Both the position numbers and the translations under genes were made by a program. A stretch of DNA of 64,000 nucleotides from Tropicibacter sp. Alg240-R139 (GTDB lineage: Bacteria > Pseudomonadota > Alphaproteobacteria > Rhodobacterales > Rhodobacteraceae): the NCBI RefSeq assembly GCF_900537075.1, contig NZ_UNRA01000002.1, forward strand, positions 483,249-547,248, in the 5' to 3' direction. Of this stretch, positions 1 through 15,835 are shown one piece after another. Position 1 is the stretch's first letter, and every line of letters starts with the position of its first letter. The notes under the pieces are model-generated. The model was given only the letters and a program-made list of their open reading frames with translations. It was not told the origin of the DNA and ran no database searches.

Positions 1-726
1 TATCTCAAGGACAGCTTTGATGCGCTCTACGCCGAAGGTGAAGAGGGTGCACCCAAGATGATGTCGATTGGCTTGCATTGCCGGTTGATCGGGCGGCCGG
101 GTCGGATCATGGCACTGAAACGGTTCCTGGACTATGCGCAGGGGCATCAGGACGTCTGGTTCGCCACACGCCTGCAGATCGCAGAGCATTGGGCCGCGAC
201 GCATCCACCCGTGAAACATCCGCGCCCGTCGCAGATGGAGCGAGCAAAATTCATCGAGACTTATGGGGGTATTTTCGAGCATTCAGCATGGATTGCCGAG
301 CGGGCTTTTGATCTGGAACTGGGGTCAGCTCATGATACGGCCGGAGGGCTGCTCAATGCTTTGGCGCGAATGTTCCGGTCTGCCAGCGACGCAGAACGTC
401 TGGGAGTTCTGACCGCGCACCCGGATCTGGCCGGGAAACTGGCACAGGCCAAGCGGTTGACGGCGGAAAGCACGTCCGAGCAGGCTTCGGCTGGTTTGGA
501 TGCGTTGACCGACGAGGAGCGAGCATCATTCACCGAGCTCAACCAGGCTTACGTAGATAAGTTCGGCTTTCCTTTTATCATTGCGGTGCGTGATCACGAC
601 AAAGCCTCGATCATGGAGGCGTTCCAGCGCCGGATCGACCAGGACCGCAACACCGAACTTGCCGAGGCCTGCCGTCAGGTCGAACGCATCGCTGAATTCC
701 GTTTGCGGGACATCCTGCCGTCATGA
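1..726 (+). CDS. Allantoinase (PuuE type) fused to OHCU decarboxylase (UraD), 5' end outside window
   Basis: The frame is open from base 1, so the start lies upstream; 241 residues are visible. The first ~75 are the tail of a polysaccharide-deacetylase-like allantoinase (PuuE), including VWFATRLQIAEHW near residues 52-64. The rest is a 2-oxo-4-hydroxy-4-carboxy-5-ureidoimidazoline decarboxylase, with the HPDLAGK motif holding the catalytic His near residue 140 and FPFI near 190. In these families UraD makes (S)-allantoin from OHCU and PuuE opens allantoin to allantoate, so the fusion joins two consecutive steps of urate breakdown in the cytoplasm. Its stop overlaps the allA start as ATGA, so the two are probably co-translated. 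The fusion is inferred from one uninterrupted frame; the deacetylase catalytic residues are not in view. Confidence 0.85.
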   Translation, partial: YLKDSFDALYAEGEEGAPKMMSIGLHCRLIGRPGRIMALKRFLDYAQGHQDVWFATRLQIAEHWAATHPPVKHPRPSQMERAKFIETYGGIFEHSAWIAERAFDLELGSAHDTAGGLLNALARMFRSASDAERLGVLTAHPDLAGKLAQAKRLTAESTSEQASAGLDALTDEERASFTELNQAYVDKFGFPFIIAVRDHDKASIMEAFQRRIDQDRNTELAEACRQVERIAEFRLRDILPS

Positions 727-1214
727 CACAGCAGATTGTTATCCAGCCGATCTCGACCCATGCTTTCGCGCCATTTGGCGAGGTGATCGACGTTGAAGGG
801 GCGCCCGACAAGATCATCAATCAAGGGCAATGTGGGCGGTATCACGACCGGGCGTCTTTGGATTTTGTCGAAGGCCGGGCGGGCGTGAGCCTGTTCAATG
901 CCAAACCGCGTGAACTGCCATATACCCTTGAGCTGGTCGAGCGGCACCCCGAAGGGAGCCAGATGTTCATCCCCATGACCGAGCATCCATTTCTGGTGAT
1001 CGTTGCACCAGATGAAGATGGCAAGCCGGGGATTCCGCTGGCGTTTGAGACGCAAGCCGGGCAAGCGATCAATTTTCGCCGGGGTACATGGCATGGGGTT
1101 TTGACCCCATTGCATGCGCCGGGACTGTTTGCGGTCGTCGACCGCATCGGGGACGGGACCAATCTAGAGGAGCATTGGTTCGACACCCCATTCGTGGTGG
1201 TACGGCCGGAATAA
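723..1214 (+). CDS. allA: Ureidoglycolate lyase
   Basis: A 163-residue cupin-fold protein matching AllA in length and in motifs such as FRRGTWHGVLTP and the DRIGDGTNLEEHW stretch near the C-terminus. Ureidoglycolate lyase splits (S)-ureidoglycolate into glyoxylate and urea, the last step of ureide catabolism. It overlaps the upstream PuuE-UraD gene by four bases (ATGA), which fixes the start. A purine permease gene follows in the same direction, so the three look like one purine-use operon. Its product glyoxylate is the substrate of the beta-hydroxyaspartate cycle encoded about 3 kb downstream on the other strand. Confidence 0.9.
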   Translation: MTQQIVIQPISTHAFAPFGEVIDVEGAPDKIINQGQCGRYHDRASLDFVEGRAGVSLFNAKPRELPYTLELVERHPEGSQMFIPMTEHPFLVIVAPDEDGKPGIPLAFETQAGQAINFRRGTWHGVLTPLHAPGLFAVVDRIGDGTNLEEHWFDTPFVVVRPE

Positions 1215-1294: not shown

Positions 1295-2758
1295 ATGGCT
1301 GACACTTCGATAGGGACCGCAGCACAGCTGCGCGATCCGAATTACACGCCGGCGCTGCACAAGGCGGTGCCACTTGGCATTCAGCATGTGCTGGCGATGT
1401 TTGTCTCAAACATCACGCCCGCCATCATCATCTCGGGCGCGGCCGGATTTGGTTTTGGCTCTGATGCGGGGGCGCAAGGGTTCCCCGACATGACCTATCT
1501 GATCCAGATGTCGATGCTCTTTGCGGGTATTGCGACTCTGTTTCAGACCATTGGTATGGGTCCAGTGGGCGCGCGCCTGCCCATCGTGCAAGGCACCAGT
1601 TTTGCCTTCATTCCGATCATGATCCCGCTGGTTGCGGGCAAGGGGGTCGAGGCGCTGCCTGCGCTCTTTGGTGGCGTCTTGATCGGCGGGTTGTTCCACA
1701 CGCTGTTGGGGACAGTGATCGGTCGCATCCGCTTTGCTTTGCCGCCTTTGGTGACCGGTCTCGTCGTGACGATGATTGGTCTCTATCTGGTGCGCGTCGG
1801 TATTGAATATGCTGCGGGCGGCGTACCTGCCAAGGCGTTCAACAAACCCGAATACGGCAGCCTGTTGAATTGGTCGGTGGCGCTGGTGGTGATCTTTGTC
1901 ACGCTTGGGATGAAGTTTTTTGCCCGTGGGATGCTGTCGGTTTCGGCGGTGCTGATCGGGATCTTAGCGGGCTACATTTATTCGATGTTCTTTGGTCTGG
2001 TGAGCTTTGAGGGGATCGGCCAAAGCTGGAGCCGCGCTGCGGCGTTCGGCCTGCCCATACCGTTCAAATACGGGATTGATTTCTCTTTGGCTGCAATCAT
2101 CGGCTTCTGTCTGATGTCTTTTGTCAGCGCGGTTGAAACCGTAGGCGATGTCAGCGGCATCACCAAGGGTGGTGCGGGACGTGAAGCGACCGACAAGGAG
2201 ATTCAGGGCGCGACCTTTGCCGACGGTATTGGTTCGGCGATTGCGGGGCTGTTTGGCGGGTTTCCAAATACGTCTTTCAGCCAGAACGTGGGCCTAATCG
2301 CCATGACAGGCGTGATGAGTCGCCACGTGGTGACCATCGGCGCAATCTTCCTGATCGTTTGCGGGTTGATCCCCAAGGTCGGTGCATTGATCCGCACCAT
2401 TCCCATCGAGGTTCTGGGCGGTGGTGTTATCGTGATGTTCGGGATGGTTGTGTCTGCAGGGGTTTCGATGCTGTCGGACGTGAATTGGAACCGGCGCAAC
2501 ATGGTGATCTTTGCCATTGCTTTGTCGATCGGATTTGGTTTGCAGCTGGAGGTTATGAATGTCGCACCAGGATCGCCAAACGCACTGCAGTATCTACCGG
2601 ATACGCTGCGCATTTTGGCGGCCTCGGGCATTCTGCCGGCGGCTTTGATCGCCATCGTATTGAACCTGATCTTGCCCGAAGAACTGGCGGATGAAGCGAC
2701 TGAGGAAGTATCAGGTGGCATGTCCGGTCACGGATCAGGCAGTTTGCCTGGCGAATAA
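1295..2758 (+). CDS. NCS2-family nucleobase permease (uracil/xanthine/urate type)
   Basis: A 487-residue, very hydrophobic protein with about 12-14 membrane segments and NCS2 features: an N-terminal LGIQHVLAMF motif, the central AVETVGDVSGITKG stretch and GGFPNTSFSQNVGL. NCS2 carriers import nucleobases such as xanthine, urate or uracil with a cation. Placement behind allantoinase and ureidoglycolate lyase genes favours xanthine or urate as substrate, which is inference. The frame stays open upstream, but I chose the ATG at 1295 because GGGAGGA sits 10 bases before it; an ATG at 1265 is the alternative. A palindromic repeat follows the stop. Confidence 0.88.
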   Translation: MADTSIGTAAQLRDPNYTPALHKAVPLGIQHVLAMFVSNITPAIIISGAAGFGFGSDAGAQGFPDMTYLIQMSMLFAGIATLFQTIGMGPVGARLPIVQGTSFAFIPIMIPLVAGKGVEALPALFGGVLIGGLFHTLLGTVIGRIRFALPPLVTGLVVTMIGLYLVRVGIEYAAGGVPAKAFNKPEYGSLLNWSVALVVIFVTLGMKFFARGMLSVSAVLIGILAGYIYSMFFGLVSFEGIGQSWSRAAAFGLPIPFKYGIDFSLAAIIGFCLMSFVSAVETVGDVSGITKGGAGREATDKEIQGATFADGIGSAIAGLFGGFPNTSFSQNVGLIAMTGVMSRHVVTIGAIFLIVCGLIPKVGALIRTIPIEVLGGGVIVMFGMVVSAGVSMLSDVNWNRRNMVIFAIALSIGFGLQLEVMNVAPGSPNALQYLPDTLRILAASGILPAALIAIVLNLILPEELADEATEEVSGGMSGHGSGSLPGE

Positions 2759-2869: not shown

Positions 2870-3853
2870 CTAGGTGGCCATCCGCATCGCCACATCAAGC
2901 ATGCGTGCGGAAAAGCCCCATTCGTTGTCGTACCAGCCGAAGACGCGCACCTGCCGTGCGCCGGTCATGCGGGTTTCAGGCTCGGCGATGATCAGTGACT
3001 CGGGCCGATTGCGCAGGTCCGAAGACACCAGTGGCACGTCGGTCCAGCCAAGCACAGGTGAGGTTTGCACCTGTTGATGCAGGCGATCTCTGAACGACTT
3101 CTCGTCCATGTCGGTCGATAGTTGTACCACTAGATCCACGGCGGACACACTTGCCGTAGGGACTCTCACAGCCGCGCCGCTGATCTTGCCCGCCAGATGC
3201 GGCAGGATCGTGTCGATCAGATGTGTGGCTGACGAGGTCGTCGGCACCATCGACAGTGCCGCCGCCCGAGATCGCGCCAGATCGCCGCGAGGGGCGTCCA
3301 CCAGGGGTTGGCTGTTGGTGTAGCAGTGGATTGTCGTCATATGCGCGGTTTCAATCCCGGCGATGTCGTCGATCACTTTGACCAGCGGTGCCAGACCGTT
3401 GGTCGTACACGACGCGTTCGACACGATCCGGGCGTTGCCCAGATCATCCTCGTTGGCGCCCAGTACGATGGTTACCTCGGCCGCCGGAGACGGGCCAGAT
3501 ATCAGCACCTTACCCGCACCCGCTGTCAGACCACGTGCGGCCACATCTGACGTGCGCGCGACACCGGTGCAATCCAGCAGCACGTCCACGCCGCTCAGAT
3601 CGACACGGGTCAGGTCCGGACTGTGAGTGATCGGGATGGCGCGGCCATCGACCACCAGTGCTTCGTCCCCGGCCAGAACCGCGCCGGGGTAGGGGCCAAA
3701 TGTGCTGTCGTATTTGAACAGATACGCGCAGGTTTCGAGCGGGGCGATGTCATTGATCTGCACCACCTCGACGTCGGAATCCTGCGGCAGGGCAAGCACC
3801 TGTCGCAGGATCGTGCGGCCGATGCGGCCGAATCCGTTGATCGCCAGTTTCAT
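2870..3853 (-). CDS. Type I glyceraldehyde-3-phosphate dehydrogenase, fifth gene behind bhcD
   Basis: A 327-residue GAPDH with INGFGRIGR at residues 4-12, the catalytic Cys149 in SNASCTTN and His176 in TTIHCYTN. The segment after His176 (YTNSQ, then ARSRAAALSMVP) resembles the GapB and Epd branches more than the glycolytic GapA type (TTATQKTVDGP). Asp35 in QIND, usually linked to NAD preference, is kept, so cofactor choice is unclear. The second Cys of the usual SCTTNC block is Gly152. Translation from ATG 3853 starts 19 bases after the bhcD stop, without a clear Shine-Dalgarno, so it probably belongs to the bhc operon. A gluconeogenic role downstream of the cycle is inference; erythrose-4-phosphate dehydrogenase is an alternative. 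Confidence 0.82.
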   Translation of the reverse strand: MKLAINGFGRIGRTILRQVLALPQDSDVEVVQINDIAPLETCAYLFKYDSTFGPYPGAVLAGDEALVVDGRAIPITHSPDLTRVDLSGVDVLLDCTGVARTSDVAARGLTAGAGKVLISGPSPAAEVTIVLGANEDDLGNARIVSNASCTTNGLAPLVKVIDDIAGIETAHMTTIHCYTNSQPLVDAPRGDLARSRAAALSMVPTTSSATHLIDTILPHLAGKISGAAVRVPTASVSAVDLVVQLSTDMDEKSFRDRLHQQVQTSPVLGWTDVPLVSSDLRNRPESLIIAEPETRMTGARQVRVFGWYDNEWGFSARMLDVAMRMAT

Positions 3854-3872
3854 AGGCGAAGATATGGCAGGG

Positions 3873-4838
3873 CTAGAATTCGACCTCAATGGCTGTTCCG
3901 CGCTCGATGGCAAGTTCCAGGGCTGCAGAGGCCACCGCAAGGTCTTGCAATCCAACACCAGTGCCGTCGAAAAGCGTGACGTCGTCGTCCGAGGTGCGAC
4001 CGGGATGAGTGCCATTGATGACAGCGCCCAGTTCCGAGATCGCTTCGGCCGTGATCAGCCCGTCTTTGACGGCGTGCTGCGCCTCTCCCAATGTCACGGA
4101 TTGCGCGATCTCGTCGGTAAAGACTTGCGCGCGTGCCAACAGCGCTGCCTCGACCTCTTGTTTGCCGATAGTGTCGGTGCCCATGCAGGCGATGTGGGTG
4201 CCGGGGCGCACCTGCACATCCATCAGGATCGGGTCAAAGCTTGAAGTGATTGATATGATGACATCAGCCTGCGCGCCCAATTGATCCAGGTCGACCGCTT
4301 CGAAGGGCAAACCCAATGCCGTAGCTGTTTCTTCCAGCCGAGAGAGCATTTCAGGGTGCAGGTTCCAACCGATCACTTTTTCAAAGTCCCGATGTTTCAC
4401 CGCCGCCCGCATCTGAAAAGCCGACTGGTGTCCGGCACCAATCATTCCCAGAACCTTGGCGTCCACCCGCGCCAGGTGGCGGATCGACACTGCACTGGCG
4501 GCCGCAGTGCGCAGGGCGGTCAACAGGTTGCCGCCCACAACAGCGCGGCATTGACCTGTGTCGGCGTCAAACAGAAAAACCGACGATTGGTGGTTGGTCA
4601 GCCCCTTGTCCATGTTGCCCGGCCAATAGCCGCCGGACTTCAGCCCCAGGTTCAATCCTGCCCGGTCAAACCCGGATTTAAAACCATAGAGCGCGTCCGC
4701 ATGACCAATGGCCTCGCGAATGACCGGAAAATTCACCGCGTCTCCGCGCGACATGGCAGCAAAGACCGACTCGACAGCGGCAAAGCTTGCCTCTTCGGTC
4801 ATCAGGTCGGCAATGGCCGCCTCAGGTACGATCCACAT
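3873..4838 (-). CDS. bhcD: Iminosuccinate reductase of the beta-hydroxyaspartate cycle (ornithine cyclodeaminase/mu-crystallin family)
   Basis: 321 residues of the ornithine cyclodeaminase/mu-crystallin fold, with LTALRTAAASA at residues 107-117 and the dinucleotide motif GMIGAG at 131-136. By itself the family covers several reductases, but placement directly behind aldolase, dehydratase and aminotransferase genes matches the bhcABCD set described in Paracoccus denitrificans, where BhcD reduces iminosuccinate to aspartate with NAD(P)H. A 78-base gap separates it from bhcC. That gap carries a GC-rich hairpin and then GAGGAG eight bases before the ATG. The GAPDH gene follows after 19 bases. 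Confidence 0.9.
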   Translation of the reverse strand: MWIVPEAAIADLMTEEASFAAVESVFAAMSRGDAVNFPVIREAIGHADALYGFKSGFDRAGLNLGLKSGGYWPGNMDKGLTNHQSSVFLFDADTGQCRAVVGGNLLTALRTAAASAVSIRHLARVDAKVLGMIGAGHQSAFQMRAAVKHRDFEKVIGWNLHPEMLSRLEETATALGLPFEAVDLDQLGAQADVIISITSSFDPILMDVQVRPGTHIACMGTDTIGKQEVEAALLARAQVFTDEIAQSVTLGEAQHAVKDGLITAEAISELGAVINGTHPGRTSDDDVTLFDGTGVGLQDLAVASAALELAIERGTAIEVEF

Positions 4839-4858
4839 AGGCCGCTCCTCATTTATGC

Positions 4859-4884
4859 GGGGCTGCGGTAAAAGTCCGCGCCCC
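4859..4884 (-). other. Intercistronic hairpin between bhcC and bhcD
   Basis: GGGGCTGCGG (4859-4868) pairs with CCGCGCCCC (4876-4884) around a seven-base loop, with one bulge. It lies in the only sizeable gap of the bhc operon. No T-run follows on the minus strand, so it is more likely an mRNA stability or processing element than a terminator. Function is inference. Confidence 0.4.
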
Positions 4885-4916
4885 TTTGCTTAAAAGTTCT
4901 CGACTAAAGGCGCTGA

Positions 4917-6080
4917 TCAGAACGCTTTGCCGCGCGCCGAGATGGGCCATACGACTTCGACCTTGCCGCCGCGCACGCCCACGTACCAGTCATGCACGTT
5001 GCAGGTCGGGTCGCAGTGGCCGGGCACCAGGCGAAGCTTGTCGTTGACCTGCAACACGCCGTCAGGGTCCGAGACCACACCATGTTCGTCCGAACATTTG
5101 GCATAGGTCACGTCATCGCGGCCAAAGACCACCGGCAATCCGCTGTCGACCGATTGTGCTTTAAGGCCCGCATCGACCACTGCCAGATCGGCTTTGGCAT
5201 GGCTCATGACCGAGGTCAGGATGAACAGCGCATTCTCCCACTCGCCTTGGTCGATCCGCTTGCCGTCCTTGTCCAGGATGCGGCCATAATCGGCGTCCAT
5301 AAATGCGTAAGAACCACACTGAAGCTCGTTATAGACGCCCGAAGCGCCCTCGAAATAGTAGCTGCCGGTGCCGCCACCGCCGACGATGTCGCACTCCAAC
5401 CCAAGGGCCTTTAGCGCGTCCACCGCGTCGCGGACCATGGCTACGGCAATGTCGATCTTTTTGCGACGGTCGTCATAACTGTCCATATGCTGCATTGCGC
5501 CCTGATAGGCCTGGATGCCCGAGAACTTGAGGCCCTCTGACGCATCAATGGCCTGGGCGATCTCGACCACCTGCGGCGTTGTCGTCACACCGCAGCGACC
5601 CGCACCGCAGTCGATTTCCACGAGGCATTCGATTTCGGTGCCATGACGGGTTGCCGCGGCGCTCAGATCGGCAACATTAGCCAGGTCATCGACGCAGACC
5701 AAGGTGCGTGCCCCCAATTTGGGCAGACGTGCCAGCCGGTCGATCTTGGCCGGGTCGCGAACCTGATTTGACACCAGAACGTCCTTGATGCCGCCACGGG
5801 CAAACACCTCGGCCTCGCTCACCTTTTGGCAGCAGACTCCGCAGGAGTTGCCCAGCTTTTCCTGCAACAGGGCGACGTCGACAGATTTGTGCATCTTGCC
5901 GTGAACCCGATGGCGTACGCCCATCTGCGCGGCCAGTTCTCCCATCTTGGTGATGTTGCGTTCCAGCGCATCCAGATCCAGTACCAGCGCCGGGGTCTGA
6001 ATGTCTGCCTCGGCCATGCCGGGCAGGGCCGGGATGTCATAGCCCACTTCAAGGCCGTCAAATTTTGCAGGTGCGTTCAT
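4917..6080 (-). CDS. bhcC: Beta-hydroxyaspartate aldolase (D-threonine aldolase-like, PLP)
   Basis: 387 residues of the D-threonine aldolase type: an alanine-racemase-like barrel with HGKMHK at residues 60-65 carrying the PLP lysine, CGAGRCGVT in the middle, and the metal-binding HCD at 355-357 (GHCDPTCNVHDW). BhcC condenses glycine and glyoxylate to (2R,3S)-beta-hydroxyaspartate, the carbon-joining step of the cycle. The frame begins at an ATG that overlaps the bhcB stop (6095), but GAGGA lies eight bases before the ATG at 6080, and that start gives the N-terminus I would expect for BhcC. Automatic pipelines may call it D-threonine or 3-hydroxy-D-aspartate aldolase. Confidence 0.93.
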   Translation of the reverse strand: MNAPAKFDGLEVGYDIPALPGMAEADIQTPALVLDLDALERNITKMGELAAQMGVRHRVHGKMHKSVDVALLQEKLGNSCGVCCQKVSEAEVFARGGIKDVLVSNQVRDPAKIDRLARLPKLGARTLVCVDDLANVADLSAAATRHGTEIECLVEIDCGAGRCGVTTTPQVVEIAQAIDASEGLKFSGIQAYQGAMQHMDSYDDRRKKIDIAVAMVRDAVDALKALGLECDIVGGGGTGSYYFEGASGVYNELQCGSYAFMDADYGRILDKDGKRIDQGEWENALFILTSVMSHAKADLAVVDAGLKAQSVDSGLPVVFGRDDVTYAKCSDEHGVVSDPDGVLQVNDKLRLVPGHCDPTCNVHDWYVGVRGGKVEVVWPISARGKAF

Positions 6081-6091
6081 TGTTTCAGTCC

Positions 6092-7042
6092 TCATACGGT
6101 CCAGGGCAGGCGATCCATATCGACGTTGCCGCCGGTGATGATCACGCCCACGCGTTTGCCGGCAAAAACGCCGGGGTTTTTCAGGATGGTGGCCAACGGC
6201 ACGGCGCTGGAGGGTTCCAGCACGATCTTCATCCGCTGCCAGGCGAGTTTCATGGCGGCCACGATCTCGTCTTCGCTGGCTGTCAGGATGTCGCTCACGT
6301 GGTTCTGGACGAAATGCCAGGTGTTCTCTTTCAGCGGTACTTTCAGCCCATCGGCCACGGTCTGCGGCGCGTCGTCGGCGATGATGCGCCCGGCCTTGAA
6401 GCTGCGATAGGCGTCATCGGCCTGTTCTGGCTCGGCGGCGTAAATCGCTGTTTCAGGGGCTGCGCGGCTCATCCACAGGCAAGTACCCGAGATCATGCCG
6501 CCACCACCGATGGGCGCAATCACAGCGTCCAACCCGTCGGTCTGCTCCATCAACTCTCGCGAGCAGGTGCCTTGTCCGGCGATTACGCGCGGGTCGTTGT
6601 AGGGGTGCACAAAGTCGGCACCGGTTTCGGCGTGGACGCGGGCAAACACCTCTTCACGACTGCTGGTAGACGGTTCGCATTCGGTAATCACCCCGCCATA
6701 GCCCCGCACGGCAGCCTTTTTGGCGTCGGGCGCAGTGCGGGGCATGACCACGTGGCAGGGGATGCCGCGCCGCCCGGCCGCATAAGACAGTGACAGCGCG
6801 TGATTGCCCGAACTGTGCGTGGCAACACCGCGTTTGGCGGCGGCGTCATCCAGACCGAAGACCGCATTTGACGCGCCGCGCACCTTGAAAGCGCCCGCCT
6901 TTTGTAGGTTCTCGCATTTGAAAAACAGCTGCGCGCCGGTCAGGTCGTCAAAGTAGCTGGAAGTCAGAACCGCTGTGCGATGGATGTAGGGCGCGATACG
7001 CTCATGCGCGGCGATCACGTCCCTGTAGGTAGGCAAAGTCAT
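6092..7042 (-). CDS. bhcB: Beta-hydroxyaspartate dehydratase (threonine dehydratase-like, PLP)
   Basis: 316 residues of the fold-type II serine/threonine dehydratase family. The PLP lysine is Lys53 in AFKVRGA, followed by the substrate loop THSSGNHA and the phosphate-binding PIGGGG. BhcB removes water from beta-hydroxyaspartate to give iminosuccinate. The reading frame also has an ATG at 7057 that overlaps the bhcA stop; AAGGA seven bases before the ATG at 7042 makes the shorter start better supported. The gene sits tightly between bhcA and bhcC. Threo-3-hydroxyaspartate ammonia-lyase is the likely automatic label, since free iminosuccinate decays to oxaloacetate and ammonia. Confidence 0.92.
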   Translation of the reverse strand: MTLPTYRDVIAAHERIAPYIHRTAVLTSSYFDDLTGAQLFFKCENLQKAGAFKVRGASNAVFGLDDAAAKRGVATHSSGNHALSLSYAAGRRGIPCHVVMPRTAPDAKKAAVRGYGGVITECEPSTSSREEVFARVHAETGADFVHPYNDPRVIAGQGTCSRELMEQTDGLDAVIAPIGGGGMISGTCLWMSRAAPETAIYAAEPEQADDAYRSFKAGRIIADDAPQTVADGLKVPLKENTWHFVQNHVSDILTASEDEIVAAMKLAWQRMKIVLEPSSAVPLATILKNPGVFAGKRVGVIITGGNVDMDRLPWTV

Positions 7043-7056
7043 GGTCAGATCCTTCA

Positions 7057-8244
7057 TCACGCGGCGTCCTGTTGCGGGTGAGCGTGCGACTGGCGATAGA
7101 ACTCCTGTGCCGCAGCCACGCCAGAGCCGAGCCGGATGTTCATCCCCAGATCGGCCATGCACATTTCTGCCGTGGCGATCCCGGACAGGGCCATGACGTC
7201 GGTCATCGACCCCAGGTGCCCGATGCGGAACAGCTTGCCTGCGACCTCGCCCAAGCCGACGCCATAAGCGGTGCCATAGGTTTCCGCCGCATGGGCAACG
7301 ATATCGGTGCCGTTGATGCCGGGCGTCAAAATCGCGCTCACGGTGTCTGATGCAACATCCGGCGACGCGGCACACAGCTCCAACCCCCAGGCGCGCACCG
7401 CTTTGCGCACGCCTTCGGCGATGCGGTGGTGACGGGCAAAGACGTTCTCCAGCCCCTCGTCCAGCAGCATCTGCGTGGTCAGCTTCAGCCCGTTCATCAG
7501 CCCAACTGCGGGTGTGTAGGGATAGGCGTTGTTGGCGTATCCGGCGGCCATGTCACGCACGTCAAAGAAAGTGCGCGGCAGTTTGGCAGTCTCAGTTGCG
7601 GCCATCGCTTTGGCGCTGAAGCCGGTGATTGCCAGACCTGCAGGCAGCATGAACCCCTTTTGCGAGCCGGTCACGGCCACATCCACGCCCCAGTCGTCAA
7701 ACCGGAAATCCATCGAGCCGATAGAGCTGACCCCGTCGACAAAAAACAGAGCCGGGTGGCCTGCGCTGTCGATGGCGCGGCGGATGGCGGCGATGTCCGA
7801 GCGCACGCCGGTTGCTGTCTCATTATGCGTCGCCAGAACTGCCTTGATCCGATGGCTTTTGTCCGCAGACAGGATTTCTTCGTACCGGGCTGCGTCGATG
7901 CCATCACCCCAACGGGTTTCAACAATCTGTACGTCCAGCCCGTGGCGCTGGCACATGTCGATCCAGCGGTGCGAGAACATGCCGTTGCGCGCGACCAAAA
8001 CCGCGTCACCGGGAGACAGTGTATTGCAAATCGCCGTTTCCCAGCCACCGGTGCCCGAGGCGGGGAAGATGAACACCTCGGCCGAATTGCTTTTCAGCAC
8101 CTGACGCACACCTTCGCGGGCCGGGTGCAGGATCTCTCCAAACAAAGACGAGCGGTGGTCGATGCTGGGCATGTCACAGGCTTTACGCACCACTTCAGGG
8201 ATATTGGTGGGGCCTGGAATGAACAGAGGATTTTGATGGCTCAT
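7057..8244 (-). CDS. bhcA: Aspartate-glyoxylate aminotransferase (class V, PLP)
   Basis: 395 residues of the class V aminotransferase family, with NPLFIPGPTN at the N-terminus, FPASGTGGWE near residue 60, FVDGVSSIGSMDF near 168 and the PLP lysine Lys196 in TGSQKG. BhcA moves the amino group of aspartate to glyoxylate, giving oxaloacetate and the glycine used by BhcC, so the cycle regenerates its own donor. It is the first gene of the leftward operon, with AAGGAG six bases before the ATG, and faces bhcR across 165 bases that hold palindromes. Serine-glyoxylate aminotransferase is the nearest alternative; the neighbours decide for BhcA. Confidence 0.92.
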   Translation of the reverse strand: MSHQNPLFIPGPTNIPEVVRKACDMPSIDHRSSLFGEILHPAREGVRQVLKSNSAEVFIFPASGTGGWETAICNTLSPGDAVLVARNGMFSHRWIDMCQRHGLDVQIVETRWGDGIDAARYEEILSADKSHRIKAVLATHNETATGVRSDIAAIRRAIDSAGHPALFFVDGVSSIGSMDFRFDDWGVDVAVTGSQKGFMLPAGLAITGFSAKAMAATETAKLPRTFFDVRDMAAGYANNAYPYTPAVGLMNGLKLTTQMLLDEGLENVFARHHRIAEGVRKAVRAWGLELCAASPDVASDTVSAILTPGINGTDIVAHAAETYGTAYGVGLGEVAGKLFRIGHLGSMTDVMALSGIATAEMCMADLGMNIRLGSGVAAAQEFYRQSHAHPQQDAA

Positions 8245-8303
8245 AGCCGTCTCCTTGATTGCTTGGGGACGAGCGTAAGAGAAGAAGAGGTACGCAGGCA
8301 ATT

Positions 8304-8326
8304 TTTTTGAAAAAACATTTCAAAAA
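8304..8326. promoter_or_regulatory. Candidate BhcR operator 1 (9-bp inverted repeat)
   Basis: TTTTTGAAA (8304-8312) and TTTCAAAAA (8318-8326) form a perfect inverted repeat around AAACA, in the bhcA-bhcR intergenic region 60 bases upstream of the bhcA start. The TGAAA-N5-TTTCA core resembles IclR-family sites. Binding by BhcR is inferred from position. Confidence 0.5.
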
Positions 8327-8350
8327 GGAAGTGCGTAAAAAAAATGCCTA

Positions 8351-8379
8351 TTGTCAGGAGGTTAAATTTTTCACAATAT
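8351..8379 (+). promoter_or_regulatory. Candidate bhcR promoter
   Basis: TTGTCA at 8351-8356 and CAATAT at 8374-8379 are 17 bases apart, a workable sigma70-type -35/-10 pair placed 31 bases before the bhcR ATG. The -10 hexamer falls inside the palindrome at 8369-8383, which would fit autorepression. Confidence 0.4.
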
Positions 8380-8392
8380 GAAATGATATTTC
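8369..8392. promoter_or_regulatory. Candidate BhcR operator 2 (overlapping palindromes)
   Basis: Two overlapping inverted repeats: TTTCA-CAATA-TGAAA (8369-8383) and GAAAT-GAT-ATTTC (8380-8392). The second resembles the classic IclR site TGGAAATNATTTCCA. They cover the putative -10 box and end 17 bases before the bhcR start. Confidence 0.45.
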
Positions 8393-8409
8393 GTTCTTGA
8401 GGTTGCGAG

Positions 8410-9237
8410 ATGAATGATCCTGTGGAATCGACTGAAAAACGCTCTCGTGGACGTCCGCGTGGCTGGCACAACAAGACCGAGCAAAACACGATTAAATCGC
8501 TGGATCGTGCGATTGTCGTGTTGCAGCGGCTGGGAGAACTCGGGGCAGTGACGCTCACCGATCTCGCGTCAGATCTGGGTCAATCCCCGGCAACCGTTTA
8601 TCGTGTGCTGGTGACGTTCCAGAACCGCGAGCTTGTTGATTTTGACGACCGCGCACAATTGTGGAGCGTCGGGCCGGGAGCCTTCCTGATTGGCGCGACA
8701 TTCCTGCGTCGAACCAGTTTGGTTGAGCGGGCGCGGCCCGTGCTGCGGGCCTTGATGCAAGAGACAGGAGAGACCGCAAATCTGGGCATCGAACGCAACG
8801 GCGAGGTGTTGTTCGTCAGCCAGGTCGAAACACATTCCAACATCCGTGCCTTTTTCCCACCCGGTACAGTATCGGAAATGCACGCCTCTGGGATCGGTAA
8901 GGCGTTGCTGGCCTTCATGGCTGAGGATCGGCGTGACGCAATACTGTCGAGGCAACCCCTGACGGCCTACACTACGCAGACCCTGACGCAACTGGACAGT
9001 TTGATAGCTAATCTGCAACTCAGCAGAGGTCGGGGGTATGCCTTTGATGCGGATGAAAAAACAGACGGAATGCGCTGCATTGCAGCCCCGGTGTTCGATG
9101 CCTTTGGCGAGCCGGTCGCAGGCATATCAGTATCTGGCCCGACAAGTCGGGTCAGAGATGAAAGCATCGAAGGATTGGCACAAGCGGTCAAGACCGCCGC
9201 GCGGGCCTTGTCGATGGCGATGGGGGCGTCTGTTTAA
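8410..9237 (+). CDS. bhcR: IclR-family regulator of the bhc cluster
   Basis: 275 residues. A basic RSRGRPRGW stretch at 12-20 precedes the winged helix-turn-helix (about residues 28-90, with SLDRAIVVLQRL and SPATVYRVL); the IclR ligand-binding domain fills the rest. It is divergent from bhcA, the arrangement known for BhcR in Paracoccus denitrificans, where the protein binds the shared intergenic region and responds to glyoxylate. I infer the same role here. GAGG lies about eight bases before the ATG. The stop overlaps by two bases the stop of a convergent lipoprotein gene. Confidence 0.88.
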   Translation: MNDPVESTEKRSRGRPRGWHNKTEQNTIKSLDRAIVVLQRLGELGAVTLTDLASDLGQSPATVYRVLVTFQNRELVDFDDRAQLWSVGPGAFLIGATFLRRTSLVERARPVLRALMQETGETANLGIERNGEVLFVSQVETHSNIRAFFPPGTVSEMHASGIGKALLAFMAEDRRDAILSRQPLTAYTTQTLTQLDSLIANLQLSRGRGYAFDADEKTDGMRCIAAPVFDAFGEPVAGISVSGPTSRVRDESIEGLAQAVKTAARALSMAMGASV

Positions 9238-9581
9238 CCGCCGGTGGCTGTGCTCGGTGGGCAACTGACCTGAGAATAGAACTGGCCCGTGATTTTTTCA
9301 TACATAGTTGACCAGATCACACGGCACCCGGTGGCCTGTTGAATGGCGGTAGCGGCTTGAACGCTGCGGCGGCGCGGCGGCGGGCCATAGGGGTTGAGGT
9401 TGTTCCAGTCGCGGGTCGCCCGGTAAATGACCGGCGTGTCCGCGACCTGAACCACTTCCCAGGTGCGGCTCATGACACCGACGGATTTTGTGGGGTACTC
9501 TGGCTTGGTCAAATTGGTGGCCTCGCAGCCCGCCACAGCAAGCGCTGCCAGCAAAACAGGAACTGTTGCGCGGATTTTCAT
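9234..9581 (-). CDS. Small putative lipoprotein, unknown function
   Basis: 115 residues. The N-terminus MKIRATVPVLLAALAVAGC is a short lipoprotein signal with the lipobox Cys at 19, so the protein is probably anchored in the outer membrane. The mature part is rich in polar residues, with WNNLNPYGPPPRRR in the middle and two further cysteines; I recognise no domain. The frame extends further upstream, but ATG 9581 gives the signal peptide and has GGAG eight bases before it. It converges with bhcR, and I see no sign that it takes part in the neighbouring pathways. Confidence 0.7.
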   Translation of the reverse strand: MKIRATVPVLLAALAVAGCEATNLTKPEYPTKSVGVMSRTWEVVQVADTPVIYRATRDWNNLNPYGPPPRRRSVQAATAIQQATGCRVIWSTMYEKITGQFYSQVSCPPSTATGG

Positions 9582-9660
9582 TAACCAAACTCCGTCTTTT
9601 TGAATGCGTTGACTCTGTTTGACCAAATTTCGCGCGGCCTGTGAACCCCCGAAGCGCGTA

Positions 9661-10491
9661 TTAGCGAGGAGGGGACAGTGGCATATGGCGATTGACGTCT
9701 TTGTACAACAGATAGCGGAACCGTTCGGGGCCGCCGGCATAACAGGCCTGAGGGCAGAAAGCGCGCAGCCACATATAGTCGCCTGCCTCGACCTCGACCC
9801 AGTCCTGATTCAGGCGATACACTGCCTTGCCCTCGAGCACATAGAGTCCGTGTTCCATTACATGGGTTTCCGCAAAGGGGATGACGCCACCGGGCAGGAA
9901 ATTGACGATGTTGACATGCATGTCATGGCGCAGGTCTTCGGGGTCAACAAAACGCGTGGTGGACCAGCGCCCTTCAGTTCCCGGCATCTCGCGCGGGGCG
10001 ACGTCCTGTTCGCGGGTAACAAATGGCTCTGGCCGCGCGATGCCGTCAACCGCCTGGTACGCCTTGCGAATCCAATGAAAGCGTGCGGCCGGTCCGGTGT
10101 GGTTCTTAAGGTGCCATTCGCATCCGGCAGGCAGATAGGCATACCCGCCCGGTTCAAGTACATGATCGGTTTGCTCGATTGTCAGCGTCACGGCACCCTC
10201 GACGACAAACAGCACCCCTTGGGCGTTGGGATCCGTCTCGGGGCGCTCGCTGCCGCCGCCCGGCTGAACTTCCATGATGTAATGCGAAAAGGTTTCGGCA
10301 AAGCCGCTCATCGGACGGGCAAGAACCCAAACACGGGTCTTGTCCCAGAACGGTAGGAAGCTGGTGACGATGTCGCGCATCGTGCCCTTGGGGATAACGG
10401 CATAGGCCGTTGTGAACATGGCCCGATCGGTCAATAGCTGTTCTTGTCCGGGGTGACCGCCGGTAGGGGCGTAGTATTTGGGATGCGCCAT
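9661..10491 (-). CDS. allE: (S)-ureidoglycine aminohydrolase
   Basis: 276 residues with two cupin domains, around residues 60-135 and 180-260. Motifs include PGGGSERPETDPNAQGVLFV in the first and NIVNFLPGGVIPFAETHVMEHGL cut across the metal-site region in the second (HVMEH). AllE, also called YlbA or UGHY, converts (S)-ureidoglycine to (S)-ureidoglycolate with release of ammonia, directly before AllA. The gene lies beyond the bhc cluster from allA and on the opposite strand. The frame continues upstream of 10491, but that N-terminal extension is proline-rich and unlike the family; GAGG five bases before the ATG at 10491 supports the shorter start. Confidence 0.88.
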   Translation of the reverse strand: MAHPKYYAPTGGHPGQEQLLTDRAMFTTAYAVIPKGTMRDIVTSFLPFWDKTRVWVLARPMSGFAETFSHYIMEVQPGGGSERPETDPNAQGVLFVVEGAVTLTIEQTDHVLEPGGYAYLPAGCEWHLKNHTGPAARFHWIRKAYQAVDGIARPEPFVTREQDVAPREMPGTEGRWSTTRFVDPEDLRHDMHVNIVNFLPGGVIPFAETHVMEHGLYVLEGKAVYRLNQDWVEVEAGDYMWLRAFCPQACYAGGPERFRYLLYKDVNRHMPLSPPR

Positions 10492-10704
10492 GTAAGCCTC
10501 GTCAATAGGAGTTGCTGGCACTATGGGCGGAACTGGGATTGGCTGGAAAGGCGGGTTAATCGGATAGCTTTCTATTGGATAATTTGAAGATTTGTTTTTC
10601 GGGGTTTGGACAAGCCGACACGGGCAGTGTAACGATGAGCCCAAGAACTGTGTTCGGCGATCACTTTCGATGTGATCGAACCACCAGGAGCGTTTGAGGC
10701 AACA

Positions 10705-11371: not shown

Positions 11372-11731
11372 ATGAAGTTTACTGAAGAACATGAGTGGCT
11401 GCTGCCCGAGGGCGACCTGATCGTGGTGGGAATCACAGCACATGCAGCCGAGCAGTTGGGCGATGTGGTGTTCATCGAACTGCCCGAAGCAGGTACCGAA
11501 GTGTCAATGGATGACGAGGTGGTCGTCATCGAAAGTGTCAAGGCGGCTTCGGATATCCTTGCGCCTCTGGATGGCGAAATCGTTGAGGTCAACGAAGCTT
11601 TGGTGGACGCACCAGGCCGCGTGAACGAGGACCCGATGGGCGAGGCGTGGTTTTTCAAGATAAAGCCTTCAGACCTGTCACCTATGGACGATTACATGGA
11701 CGAAACCAGGTACAAAGATTTCATCGGTTGA
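11372..11731 (+). CDS. gcvH: Glycine cleavage system H protein
   Basis: 119 residues matching GcvH along its length: [10 protein letters not shown] at the N-terminus, the lipoyl-lysine Lys57 in [10 protein letters not shown], and the [13 protein letters not shown] stretch near the end. The lipoylated H protein shuttles the aminomethyl group between the P, T and L proteins of glycine cleavage. GGAAG precedes the ATG; the frame is open further upstream but without family similarity. No gcvT or gcvP lies next to it, and repeat elements sit on both sides, so the gene stands alone here. It may have been separated from its usual operon or be a second copy. Confidence 0.9.
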
Positions 11732-11952: not shown

Positions 11953-12888
11953 TCAGTAGCCGCGGTCACGGTCCACTTCGTGTAGAAGGGGCTCTCCAGC
12001 GGTCAGTCGGCGGTAATTCTCGGCGACGTCCTTTAGTGCTTCCCCCAGATGCCAGCCTGAAACATGCGGTGTGATCACCACCTTCGAGTGTGTCCAGAGC
12101 GGGTTGTCAGACGGCAAGGGCTCTTCACTCACAACATCCAGAACGGCCGAGTCGAACTGTCCTGCGTCCAGCGCGGCCATAAGGGCCGGCTCGACAATCA
12201 AATCTCCGCGACCGGCATTCAGTAACTGCGCGCCGGGCTTCATGGCCGCCAACAGGTCGCCGTCGAAGAGGCCAATTGTTTCGGTGGTCGATGGCAGAAT
12301 GGCACAGACGAAATCGCACGCACCAAGAAGCCCGGGCAAAGCGTCATAGCCGTGGTGGCATTCGACACCTTCGATGTCTTTCGGCGAACGGCTCCAACCT
12401 TTGACCTGAAAACCGATATCCCGCAGCATGCATGCCGACCGGCTGCCGATGTGGCCCAATCCCAGAACGCCGACCACAGTATCCGGCGTGTAACGCGGTT
12501 CGACCGGGGACCACGTGCTGATCGCCTGATCAGAATCGTGCTTGTCCATATTGCGCTGCGCCCGCAGGATATAGGCGAGGAACCATTCGGCGATCTCTCG
12601 GGCCGGTGCGTCGGGTTTAAGGCGGGTCACGCGCACATGATCAGGCAATCCGGGGTGTTTGACGATGGTTTCAACCCCCGCACCCAGCTTTTGCACCAAC
12701 TGCAGGTTCGGGAATTCCGTTGGGCGGTCACCGTTCAGGCTGACCACGGCCATCATGGTAATGTCTTCTGGGTTGCCAACATCCGTGCTCAGCCGAACGT
12801 CTGCCTCGGGCATGGCAGCGCGGACTTGATCGGCCAGCTCCTGCTCGGTCATCCATCCGCTGATGCCGATATCAATCAACAAAGCCAT
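11953..12888 (-). CDS. 2-hydroxyacid dehydrogenase, glyoxylate/hydroxypyruvate reductase A type
   Basis: 311 residues of the D-isomer-specific 2-hydroxyacid dehydrogenase family. The NAD(P) motif is GLGHIG at residues 143-148, followed by NAGRGDLI and the C-terminal catalytic region PHVSGW. The overall pattern is closest to GhrA, which reduces glyoxylate and hydroxypyruvate with NADPH. Two kilobases from glyoxylate-producing and glyoxylate-using genes, a role in glyoxylate balance is plausible but is inference. AAGGGA before the ATG at 12888 supports that start over an extended one at 12930. Confidence 0.82.
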   Translation of the reverse strand: MALLIDIGISGWMTEQELADQVRAAMPEADVRLSTDVGNPEDITMMAVVSLNGDRPTEFPNLQLVQKLGAGVETIVKHPGLPDHVRVTRLKPDAPAREIAEWFLAYILRAQRNMDKHDSDQAISTWSPVEPRYTPDTVVGVLGLGHIGSRSACMLRDIGFQVKGWSRSPKDIEGVECHHGYDALPGLLGACDFVCAILPSTTETIGLFDGDLLAAMKPGAQLLNAGRGDLIVEPALMAALDAGQFDSAVLDVVSEEPLPSDNPLWTHSKVVITPHVSGWHLGEALKDVAENYRRLTAGEPLLHEVDRDRGY

Positions 12889-15075: not shown

Positions 15076-15835
15076 ACGGATCGTTCGGGTAGCCAACGCG
15101 CGCCAGATACAGCCCCTGTGGCGGACAGACCGGGCCGCAGGCCGCTCGATCACAAGCTTCCAACGCCGCCTTAACATCTTCAGGTGACCAGCTCTTGGCG
15201 CCGACACGTTCTAGCGTACCGACGAAACTGCGTACCTGATTGTGCAGGAAAGATCGGGCGCGCACGTGAAAATGGATCTCAGACCCCGAGAAGCCCTGAA
15301 CCTTTTCGATGCGCAGCTCATCCAATGTTTTGACCGGGCTTGCGGCCTGGCAGATGGTTGATCGGAACGTCGTGAAGTCATGCCGCCCGATCAAATGCGC
15401 TGCGCCTTCACGCATGGCGTCAATGTCCAGTCGTTGATTGACCCGCCAGACCTGCCCCTTGTTGTGGGTTTCCGGCGCGCGACGTTGCAGGATGCGGAAC
15501 AGATACTGCCGCTCAACGGCCGAGAACCGTGCATGCCAGTCGTCGTCCACCGGCGCAGCCGAGACAATGGCGACGGGCTGAGGTTTCAGGTGATAATTCA
15601 ACGCTTCGGACAAACGGAAGGGGTCCCAGTCCTTGGTCAGATCACAATGCGCCACTTGTCCCAACCCATGCACGCCCGCATCGGTGCGGCCCGCAGCAGC
15701 AATTGTGTGGGGGCCGGGTTCCAGCCGCGCCAGCGCAGCCTCGATGGCGCCCTGAACCGACGGCTGATCCTTTTGCCGCTGCCATCCGGCAAAAGGCGCG
15801 CCCTGATATTCGACTTTCAATGCATAACGTGACAT
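15068..15835 (-). CDS. truA: tRNA pseudouridine(38-40) synthase
   Basis: 255 residues of the TruA family, with the catalytic Asp52 in [12 protein letters not shown], the N-terminal [12 protein letters not shown], and the C-terminal [16 protein letters not shown] motif. TruA converts uridines 38-40 in the anticodon arm of many tRNAs to pseudouridine. Length and motifs are complete. It converges with the thioesterase gene, overlapping by eight bases, and is divergent from the ycjX-like gene. Confidence 0.95.

Follow-up and report, generated by a model that had tools for sequence, protein, structure and literature searches.

The beta-hydroxyaspartate cycle (BHAC) is known as a glycolate route, and the locus described here raises the question of whether it also serves another source of glyoxylate. 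In a stretch of 64,000 nucleotides from the alphaproteobacterium Tropicibacter sp. Alg240-R139 (Rhodobacteraceae), hereafter the window (C2:483249-547248 of a 4.66-Mb genome; contig C2 is NZ_UNRA01000002.1), the cycle genes bhcRABCD stand amid genes for urate catabolism and are followed by a gene of the glyceraldehyde-3-phosphate dehydrogenase (GAPDH) family, for which the working label gapX is used. Very probably, the locus is a complete BHAC operon closing a route from urate to C4 compounds that is encoded in one stretch. The cluster itself is of an ordinary kind; what is new is the frequent nesting of bhc genes in urate catabolism and the conserved gapX. Repeated placement of the cycle in urate loci makes assimilation of purine carbon by the cycle directly testable, and the recurrent gapX gene provides a concrete enzyme candidate for assay.

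Identity of the bhc Operon

The five bhc genes of the window, with their NCBIfam matches, are as follows.

3873–4838, minus strand: bhcD, iminosuccinate reductase (NF045643, 598.9 bits, cut-off 500)
4917–6080, minus strand: bhcC, 3-hydroxy-D-aspartate aldolase (NF045642, 749.3 bits, cut-off 690)
6092–7057, minus strand: bhcB, beta-hydroxyaspartate dehydratase (NF045641, 598.1 bits, cut-off 550)
7057–8244, minus strand: bhcA, L-aspartate-glyoxylate aminotransferase (NF045640, 735.8 bits, cut-off 650)
8410–9237, plus strand: bhcR, IclR-type regulator, divergent from bhcA (NF045644, 388.9 bits, cut-off 350)

The order is bhcA-B-C-D on the minus strand, with the bhcB start overlapping the bhcA stop as TGATG, and bhcR lies divergently on the plus strand. 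All five frames are intact, as the original prediction of four consecutive enzyme genes with a divergent IclR-type regulator had stated. The five proteins score 39 to 99 bits above the curated equivalog cut-offs, margins which rule out a chance match; as every equivalog cut-off is passed, generic pyridoxal phosphate (PLP) enzymes are likewise ruled out as the identity of these proteins. The best Protein Data Bank (PDB) chain for BhcC is the D-3-hydroxyaspartate aldolase 6qkb (E 2.3e-203, 678.8 bits; next chain 328.2) and that for BhcD is the iminosuccinate reductase 6rqa (E 2.2e-136, 457.5 bits; next chain 138.7). BhcA and BhcB are closest to a serine-glyoxylate aminotransferase (6pk1) and a serine racemase (6lut), respectively. 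The stretches around the catalytic residues of BhcA, BhcB, BhcC and BhcD align unbroken with these solved relatives, in agreement with the predicted intactness of the catalytic motifs; those of BhcA and BhcB include what we take to be the PLP-binding lysines.

For comparison with the Paracoccus denitrificans proteins, NCBIfam models, PDB chains and the published BhcR table served as proxies. By family model, P. denitrificans bhcRABCD comprises the same four enzymes and divergent IclR-type regulator, and eight of the nine effector-pocket residues of the window BhcR equal those in Table 1 of PMC11323563, position 143 being N instead of T. The assignment to bhcABCD/bhcR is thus upheld, and the cluster is confirmed as a complete BHAC operon with predicted enzyme activities, of a kind already known and labelled. 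In the window, gapX comes next after the cluster, and the whole is nested among urate-catabolism genes.

Two other parts of the original prediction hold in part. Automatic labels were expected to hide the cluster: generic names do persist in some records (e.g., for the Rhizorhabdus genes, or as 'DSD1 family'), but the NCBI models name all five proteins and bhcA-D annotations stand in many plasmid records. BhcC has matches in 133 plasmid records, and many of those listed bear the name bhcC. The cluster was also delimited as 2870–9237, a range which includes the five bhc genes but whose left end is an additional GAPDH-family gene (2870–3853); the purine-catabolism genes on both sides had gone unmentioned.

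Urate Catabolism around the Operon

The following genes flank the operon and gapX.

1–726, plus strand: 3' part of puuE-uraD, a single frame for allantoinase and 2-oxo-4-hydroxy-4-carboxy-5-ureidoimidazoline (OHCU) decarboxylase that starts outside the window (TIGR03212, TIGR03164)
723–1214, plus strand: allA, ureidoglycolate lyase, forming glyoxylate and urea (NF002952, 282.8 bits, cut-off 260)
1295–2758, plus strand: NCS2 nucleobase permease of the xanthine type (TIGR00801, 320.6 bits, cut-off 291.8)
9661–10497, minus strand: allE, (S)-ureidoglycine aminohydrolase (NF008376, 534.5 bits, cut-off 338; NF040771, 509.8 bits, cut-off 350)

The whole puuE-uraD frame scores 515.6 bits with TIGR03212 (cut-off 424.6) and 210.8 bits with TIGR03164 (cut-off 96.25). 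To its left, outside the window, lie uraH (131.8 bits, cut-off 87.45), a LysR-family gene and puuD (Pfam Urate_ox_N, 448.2 bits); the puuD, uraH and puuE-uraD frames are all open. The permease is slightly below the cut-off of a further model, TIGR03173 (408.6 bits, cut-off 414.15). AllE possibly hydrolyses allantoate as well, as its score with NF040771 suggests, in which case the locus would cover all steps from urate to glyoxylate. Because the last of these, ureidoglycolate lyase, yields glyoxylate, the urate locus would supply the substrate of the cycle. One glyoxylate is formed per urate.

In the proposed route, urate would be converted to glyoxylate by PuuD, UraH, PuuE-UraD, AllE and AllA. 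BhcA would then aminate glyoxylate to glycine with aspartate as donor, BhcC would join glycine to a second glyoxylate, BhcB would dehydrate the resulting beta-hydroxyaspartate, and BhcD would reduce iminosuccinate to aspartate, closing the cycle with release of oxaloacetate. BhcR is predicted to sense glyoxylate and to control the divergent promoter, probably via two palindromes. We infer these reactions and the BhcR effector from known families. According to the available passages of PMC11323563, two glyoxylates yield one oxaloacetate in the cycle, and purine bases and allantoin are named in the introduction as sources of glyoxylate. Thus, the metabolic idea is not new and the gene linkage is the unreported part: in the literature searched, which lacked the 2019 founding paper, no report of bhc-purine gene linkage or of bhc-gapX was found, and the passages of PMC10499878 on glyoxylate, purines and Rhodobacteraceae do not deal with bhc-purine linkage.

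Linkage of bhc, Purine Genes and gapX among Relatives

Two samples were used. The first covers 150 genomes from within the family, belonging to 149 genera by tally, in which bhcC was counted at E 1e-150 (a few copies have 62–68% identity and one is partial), the gapX subfamily was counted at 56% identity or more (the next paralogues reach at most 49%), and linkage means the same contig and a distance of at most 15 kb. The second, the named loci, comprises the best 80 of at least 588 loci ranked by BhcC match; genes at loci were counted by tblastn, as the gene caller missed gapX in loci L098 and L123 and, for example, allA in L107. Among the matches listed, BhcC of Tropicibacter sp. R16_0 is 97% identical to that of the window.

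In the 150 genomes, bhcC is present in 70, gapX in 63 and allA in 140. Linkage of bhcC and allA is seen in 26 of the 68 genomes with both genes, as compared with about 0.5 genomes expected by chance (an estimate based on a 30-kb zone in 4 Mb). Likewise, bhcC and gapX are linked in 20 of 38 genomes, gapX and allA in 23 of 62, and all three pairs in 13. The presence of bhcC and that of gapX are correlated (both, bhcC only, gapX only and neither in 38, 32, 25 and 55 genomes; Fisher p 0.005, uncorrected for kinship).

In the named loci, gapX is next after bhcD in 19 of the 74 with bhcD and room behind it. Of the 54 loci with a length of 19 kb or more, 52 have all five bhc genes, 25 have allA, allE or uraD, 16 have gapX after bhcD, and 14 combine one of these purine genes with gapX in that place, a co-occurrence with Fisher p 9e-5, uncorrected for kinship. 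A tree-aware pair test of the gapX label against the purine label yields four starred pairs only, with a median p of 0.5. On the BhcC tree (68 rows), the purine label requires at least 13 changes and the gapX label at least 12; the corresponding minima are nine and five on the BhcA tree (55 rows), and eight and seven on the BhcR tree (53 rows). On the gapX tree (67 rows), the bhc label requires at least 14. The changes of the purine label on the BhcC tree suggest that the neighborhood arose or persisted repeatedly.

Individual loci illustrate this range. On a plasmid of Sulfitobacter sp. OXR-159, bhcABCD, gapX, a nucleobase symporter and the genes for ureidoglycolate lyase, PuuE, UraH and PuuD are all in one stretch, with an AmiS/UreI transporter gene between bhcD and gapX, an insertion sequence (IS) element beside bhcA and no bhcR listed. 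Plasmid loci of Agrobacterium, Tateyamaria, Limimaricola and Rhizorhabdus have the same five-enzyme order with gapX next after bhcD, and neither annotation nor search revealed urate-pathway genes in these stretches; the Limimaricola locus has nucleobase transporters and glycine-cleavage (gcv) genes, with no bhcR listed. The gene listings of Ruegeria pomeroyi and of the plasmid copy of Paracoccus pantotrophus show no GAPDH gene behind bhcD. In the P. pantotrophus plasmid locus (L138), genes for aldehyde and alcohol dehydrogenases precede bhcB-C-D, and bhcA is missing from the listing of this stretch, which comes from a collection with an incomplete gene table.

BhcR and Putative Operators

Two palindromes lie in the intergenic region between bhcR and bhcA.

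8308–8322, no strand assigned: putative BhcR operator, a perfect TGAAA-N5-TTTCA, 63 bp before bhcA (conserved over 78 intergenic regions)
8379–8393, no strand assigned: second putative BhcR operator with one mismatch, 16 bp from the bhcR start (at least two sites in 54 of 78 regions)

When two mismatches in ten were tolerated, 77 of the 78 bhcR-bhcA intergenic regions, including that of the window, have at least one TGAAA-N5-TTTCA-like site. There are 145 sites in total, whereas 200 letter shuffles gave 10.4 on average and never more than 20; as the regions are related, this excess indicates conservation and not independent origin. Relative to the aligned bhcA start, 66 sites are at 60–69 bp, 40 at 130–139 bp and 16 at 150–159 bp. 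The 64-kb window contains three other one-mismatch sites, at 15267, 43263 and 59944. With a longer operator model, constructed without the window and its closest relative, the bhcA site scores 39.0 bits and the best place beyond this intergenic region 10.2.

In the available passages of PMC11323563 (mBio, 2024), one palindrome precedes bhcA, and a second site at bhcR is proposed to reconcile the data. The two conserved palindromes would fit this two-site proposal in their layout.

Control of the purine genes by BhcR through the same operator is unsupported, as no site is found at these genes within the window. When 43 other loci were scanned at 11 bits, keeping the three best hits per locus, hits away from bhcA were found in L091 (18.6, 14.6 and 11.4 bits) and L097 (13.0), at 2.1 to 7 kb from gapX, in L118 (11.3 and 11.2, about 0.5 kb from bhcR) and in L121 (17.5, 2.4 kb from uraD).

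Sources and Fates of Glyoxylate

The locus might also be read as a bhc operon for glycolate assimilation, as in Paracoccus, with the purine setting a historical accident devoid of functional meaning. Such a reading would accord with the presence of a glcD-like gene in 139 of the 150 genomes (at E 1e-120, none above the cut-off of that model) and with the bhc loci of Ruegeria pomeroyi and Tateyamaria, which have no purine genes in the stretches viewed. Several results weigh against the urate route: Tropicibacter sp. Alg240-R139 itself has a glcD-like gene, on another contig (C3:142777); in 42 of the 68 genomes with both genes, bhcC and allA are not linked (over 15 kb between them, or separate contigs); 72 of the 140 genomes with allA have no bhcC; the window's purine genes have no BhcR-type operator of 8 bits or more, which also speaks for the glycolate reading; and PuuD matches none of the NCBIfam models. 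The bhc-purine link is thus frequent, not obligatory, and glycolate may feed the cycle too, perhaps as the main source. A meaningless setting is nevertheless unlikely, given the co-location of bhcC and allA in 26 of 68 genomes and the repeated changes of the purine label on the BhcC tree. The linkage suggests that glyoxylate derived from purines is a regular input of the cycle besides glycolate.

Glyoxylate carboligase would offer another fate. The best match in the genome of Tropicibacter sp. Alg240-R139 reaches 323.5 bits as against a cut-off of 711.2, and none of the 150 relatives reaches this cut-off (E limit 1e-200, at most eight candidates scored per genome); E. coli, the positive control, was detected. 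In the E. coli AllR/gcl regulon, as described in the available passages of PMC11323563, allantoin-derived glyoxylate likewise falls under a glyoxylate sensor of the IclR family. Glyoxylate carboligase, the enzyme used by E. coli, is not found here; the route in the window would end in oxaloacetate. Ureidoglycolate lyase occurs in 140 of the 150 genomes, including 72 without bhcC, though none reaches the glyoxylate carboligase cut-off.

The gapX Gene

2870–3853, minus strand: gapX, GAPDH-family dehydrogenase, 19 bp after bhcD (Pfam PF00044 Gp_dh_N, PF02800 Gp_dh_C)

The gapX product is below every listed NCBIfam cut-off for GAPDH and erythrose-4-phosphate (E4P) dehydrogenase: it scores 338 bits with TIGR01534 (type I GAPDH, cut-off 367.2), and 274.6 and 268.1 bits with the E4P dehydrogenase models TIGR01532 (cut-off 530.55) and NF010058 (cut-off 539). 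The genome has two other GAPDHs, 45–46% identical to gapX. In a quick tree with some long branches, the 67 gapX rows form a single clade (SH-aLRT 100, stem of 1.16 changes per column), apart from five paralogue rows (two of them from this genome) and from chains which we take to be E. coli GapA, Epd, a GapB-type protein and an alphaproteobacterial GAPDH.

Residues are numbered by setting the catalytic cysteine as C149, and the roles of the active-site positions (catalytic, substrate-phosphate) are those we assume for GAPDHs. S148, C149, T150, H176, T179, R194, R196 and R230(231) are kept in all 67 rows. C149, H176, R230(231) and T179 are common to type I GAPDH, GapB and E4P dehydrogenase, which belong to the same family, except that Epd does not have T179. 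Unlike these enzymes, gapX forms its own clade, with fixed or near-fixed changes at seven positions. C153A/G, G208S, N235S and N283R, all four in the active-site region, are seen in every row; 66 rows have D181S, 66 have C at 177 and 65 have R at 285. D181 is not universal, the residue of E. coli GapA there being T. Of the residues near the two anion sites, S148, T150, T179, R194, R196 and R230 are among the kept ones, and 181 and 208 among the changed. The paralogue of this genome on contig C1 has A in place of D32, like the GapB chain, presumably a sign of NADP use.

Gene Neighborhoods of gapX

The presence of gapX near allA in seven genomes without bhcC rules out an exclusive membership in the bhc operon. 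The gene adjoins uraH on plasmids of Aliiroseovarius crassostreae, Salipiger and Alloyangia, and eight of 20 otherwise unlinked loci have purine or glycine-cleavage genes at most 8 kb from it; in the other 12, none of the bhc, purine and gcv genes sought was found around it. The same search gave none near gapX on plasmids of Rhizobium sp. BG4, R. grahamii and Aliiroseovarius sp. M344. Directly after bhcD, gapX is also found in Agrobacterium (two plasmids), R. leguminosarum, R. etli and Rhizorhabdus. On Rhizorhabdus wittichii pDC03 (L130), matches to bhcRABCD are followed by gapX and an NADP-malic enzyme gene, all under generic deposited names; this plasmid is typed as conjugative and has transposases close by. 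Around 7923–10000 of L089, a BhcC-like protein (54% identity) is encoded immediately ahead of gapX, and the gene calls next to it include no further bhc gene. The gapX copy at G132:C3:1100641-1101609 has one in-frame TAA and is possibly decaying.

Possible Functions of gapX

A plain housekeeping role for gapX is doubtful; it probably serves the same carbon flow with an altered active site. Whether this flow would run toward sugars or through a different aldehyde is finely balanced. The gapX product is possibly an ordinary GAPDH run gluconeogenically, turning oxaloacetate-derived carbon into sugar phosphates, as the retention of C149, H176, T179 and R230(231) with their presumed roles and the Rhizorhabdus order bhcABCD-gapX-NADP-malic enzyme would allow. 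The long stem, the score of 338 bits below the type I cut-off, the replacements at 153, 208, 235 and 283 in every row and at 181 in nearly every row (where GapA has T), and the two other GAPDHs in the genome, one with A at D32 like the GapB chain, argue against it. Those same replacements favor the oxidation of another aldehyde from glyoxylate, glycine or purine metabolism, which is just as possible, and so do the seven genomes with gapX near allA without bhcC, the three plasmids with gapX beside uraH, and the five of 20 otherwise unlinked loci with gcv genes nearby. The retained T179 and arginines, however, point to a phosphorylated substrate, and 12 of the 20 unlinked loci as well as the plasmid loci L142, L143 and L146 are without the bhc, purine or gcv genes searched for.

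An E4P dehydrogenase raising the supply of PLP for BhcA, BhcB and BhcC is very improbable. Three of the four BHAC enzymes are in PLP families (two of the three by what we take their Pfam names to be), and E. coli Epd also has a residue other than G at position 208 (K). Nonetheless, gapX has T179 where Epd has M, scores 274.6 bits with TIGR01532 against a cut-off of 530.55, and occurs in 63 of the 150 genomes only, often adjoining purine genes, which are not known to need PLP. Our own most specific proposal, that gapX is a new branch of the GAPDH superfamily acting as the fifth enzyme of an alphaproteobacterial urate-to-oxaloacetate module, is itself rather unlikely as it stands. In a bold extension of it, gapX would act as an overflow valve by oxidizing either glyoxylate or a related aldehyde that carries a carboxyl group; nothing relevant to GAPDH-type oxidation of glyoxylate was found in the literature searched.

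History of the Locus

In locus L107 of genome G033, which is without bhcC, the searched part has the gene order of the window minus bhcRABCD between gapX and the counterpart of the gene at 9234–9620. The leader before gapX (window 3845–3890, ...TTGAGGTCGAATTCTAGCCCTGCCATATCTTCGCCTATG) is common to L107, L113, L111, L105 and L090. It contains TTGAGG and CATATC-like boxes 17 bp apart, the TTGAGG of the window being inside the last bhcD codons, and looks like a promoter of gapX's own. In a consensus promoter scan of the window, the leader is not among the hits, and the promoter and terminator scan performed no better than on shuffles. Where relatives lack bhc at this position, the match of their leader to the end of bhcD may be a remnant of bhc loss. 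Gain of bhc by insertion next to gapX is also possible, and the change counts are compatible with gain and loss alike. After L002, the nearest relative of the window BhcA is in a purine-linked locus, that of BhcR in an unlinked locus and those of BhcC in a mixture of both, which hints weakly at best at recombination within the bhc operon.

Other genes of the window were also noted. The small gene at 9234–9620 is kept beside allE and gapX in relatives and has no Pfam or NCBIfam match. A GcvH gene is at 11372–11731 (TIGR00527, 142.8 bits, cut-off 115.85), about 174 kb from gcvP (C2:319662); several relatives have gcv genes adjoining gapX. The gene at 11953–12888 encodes a 2-hydroxyacid dehydrogenase nearest to GhrA (glyoxylate/hydroxypyruvate reductase), with 168.3 bits, far below the cut-off of 403.

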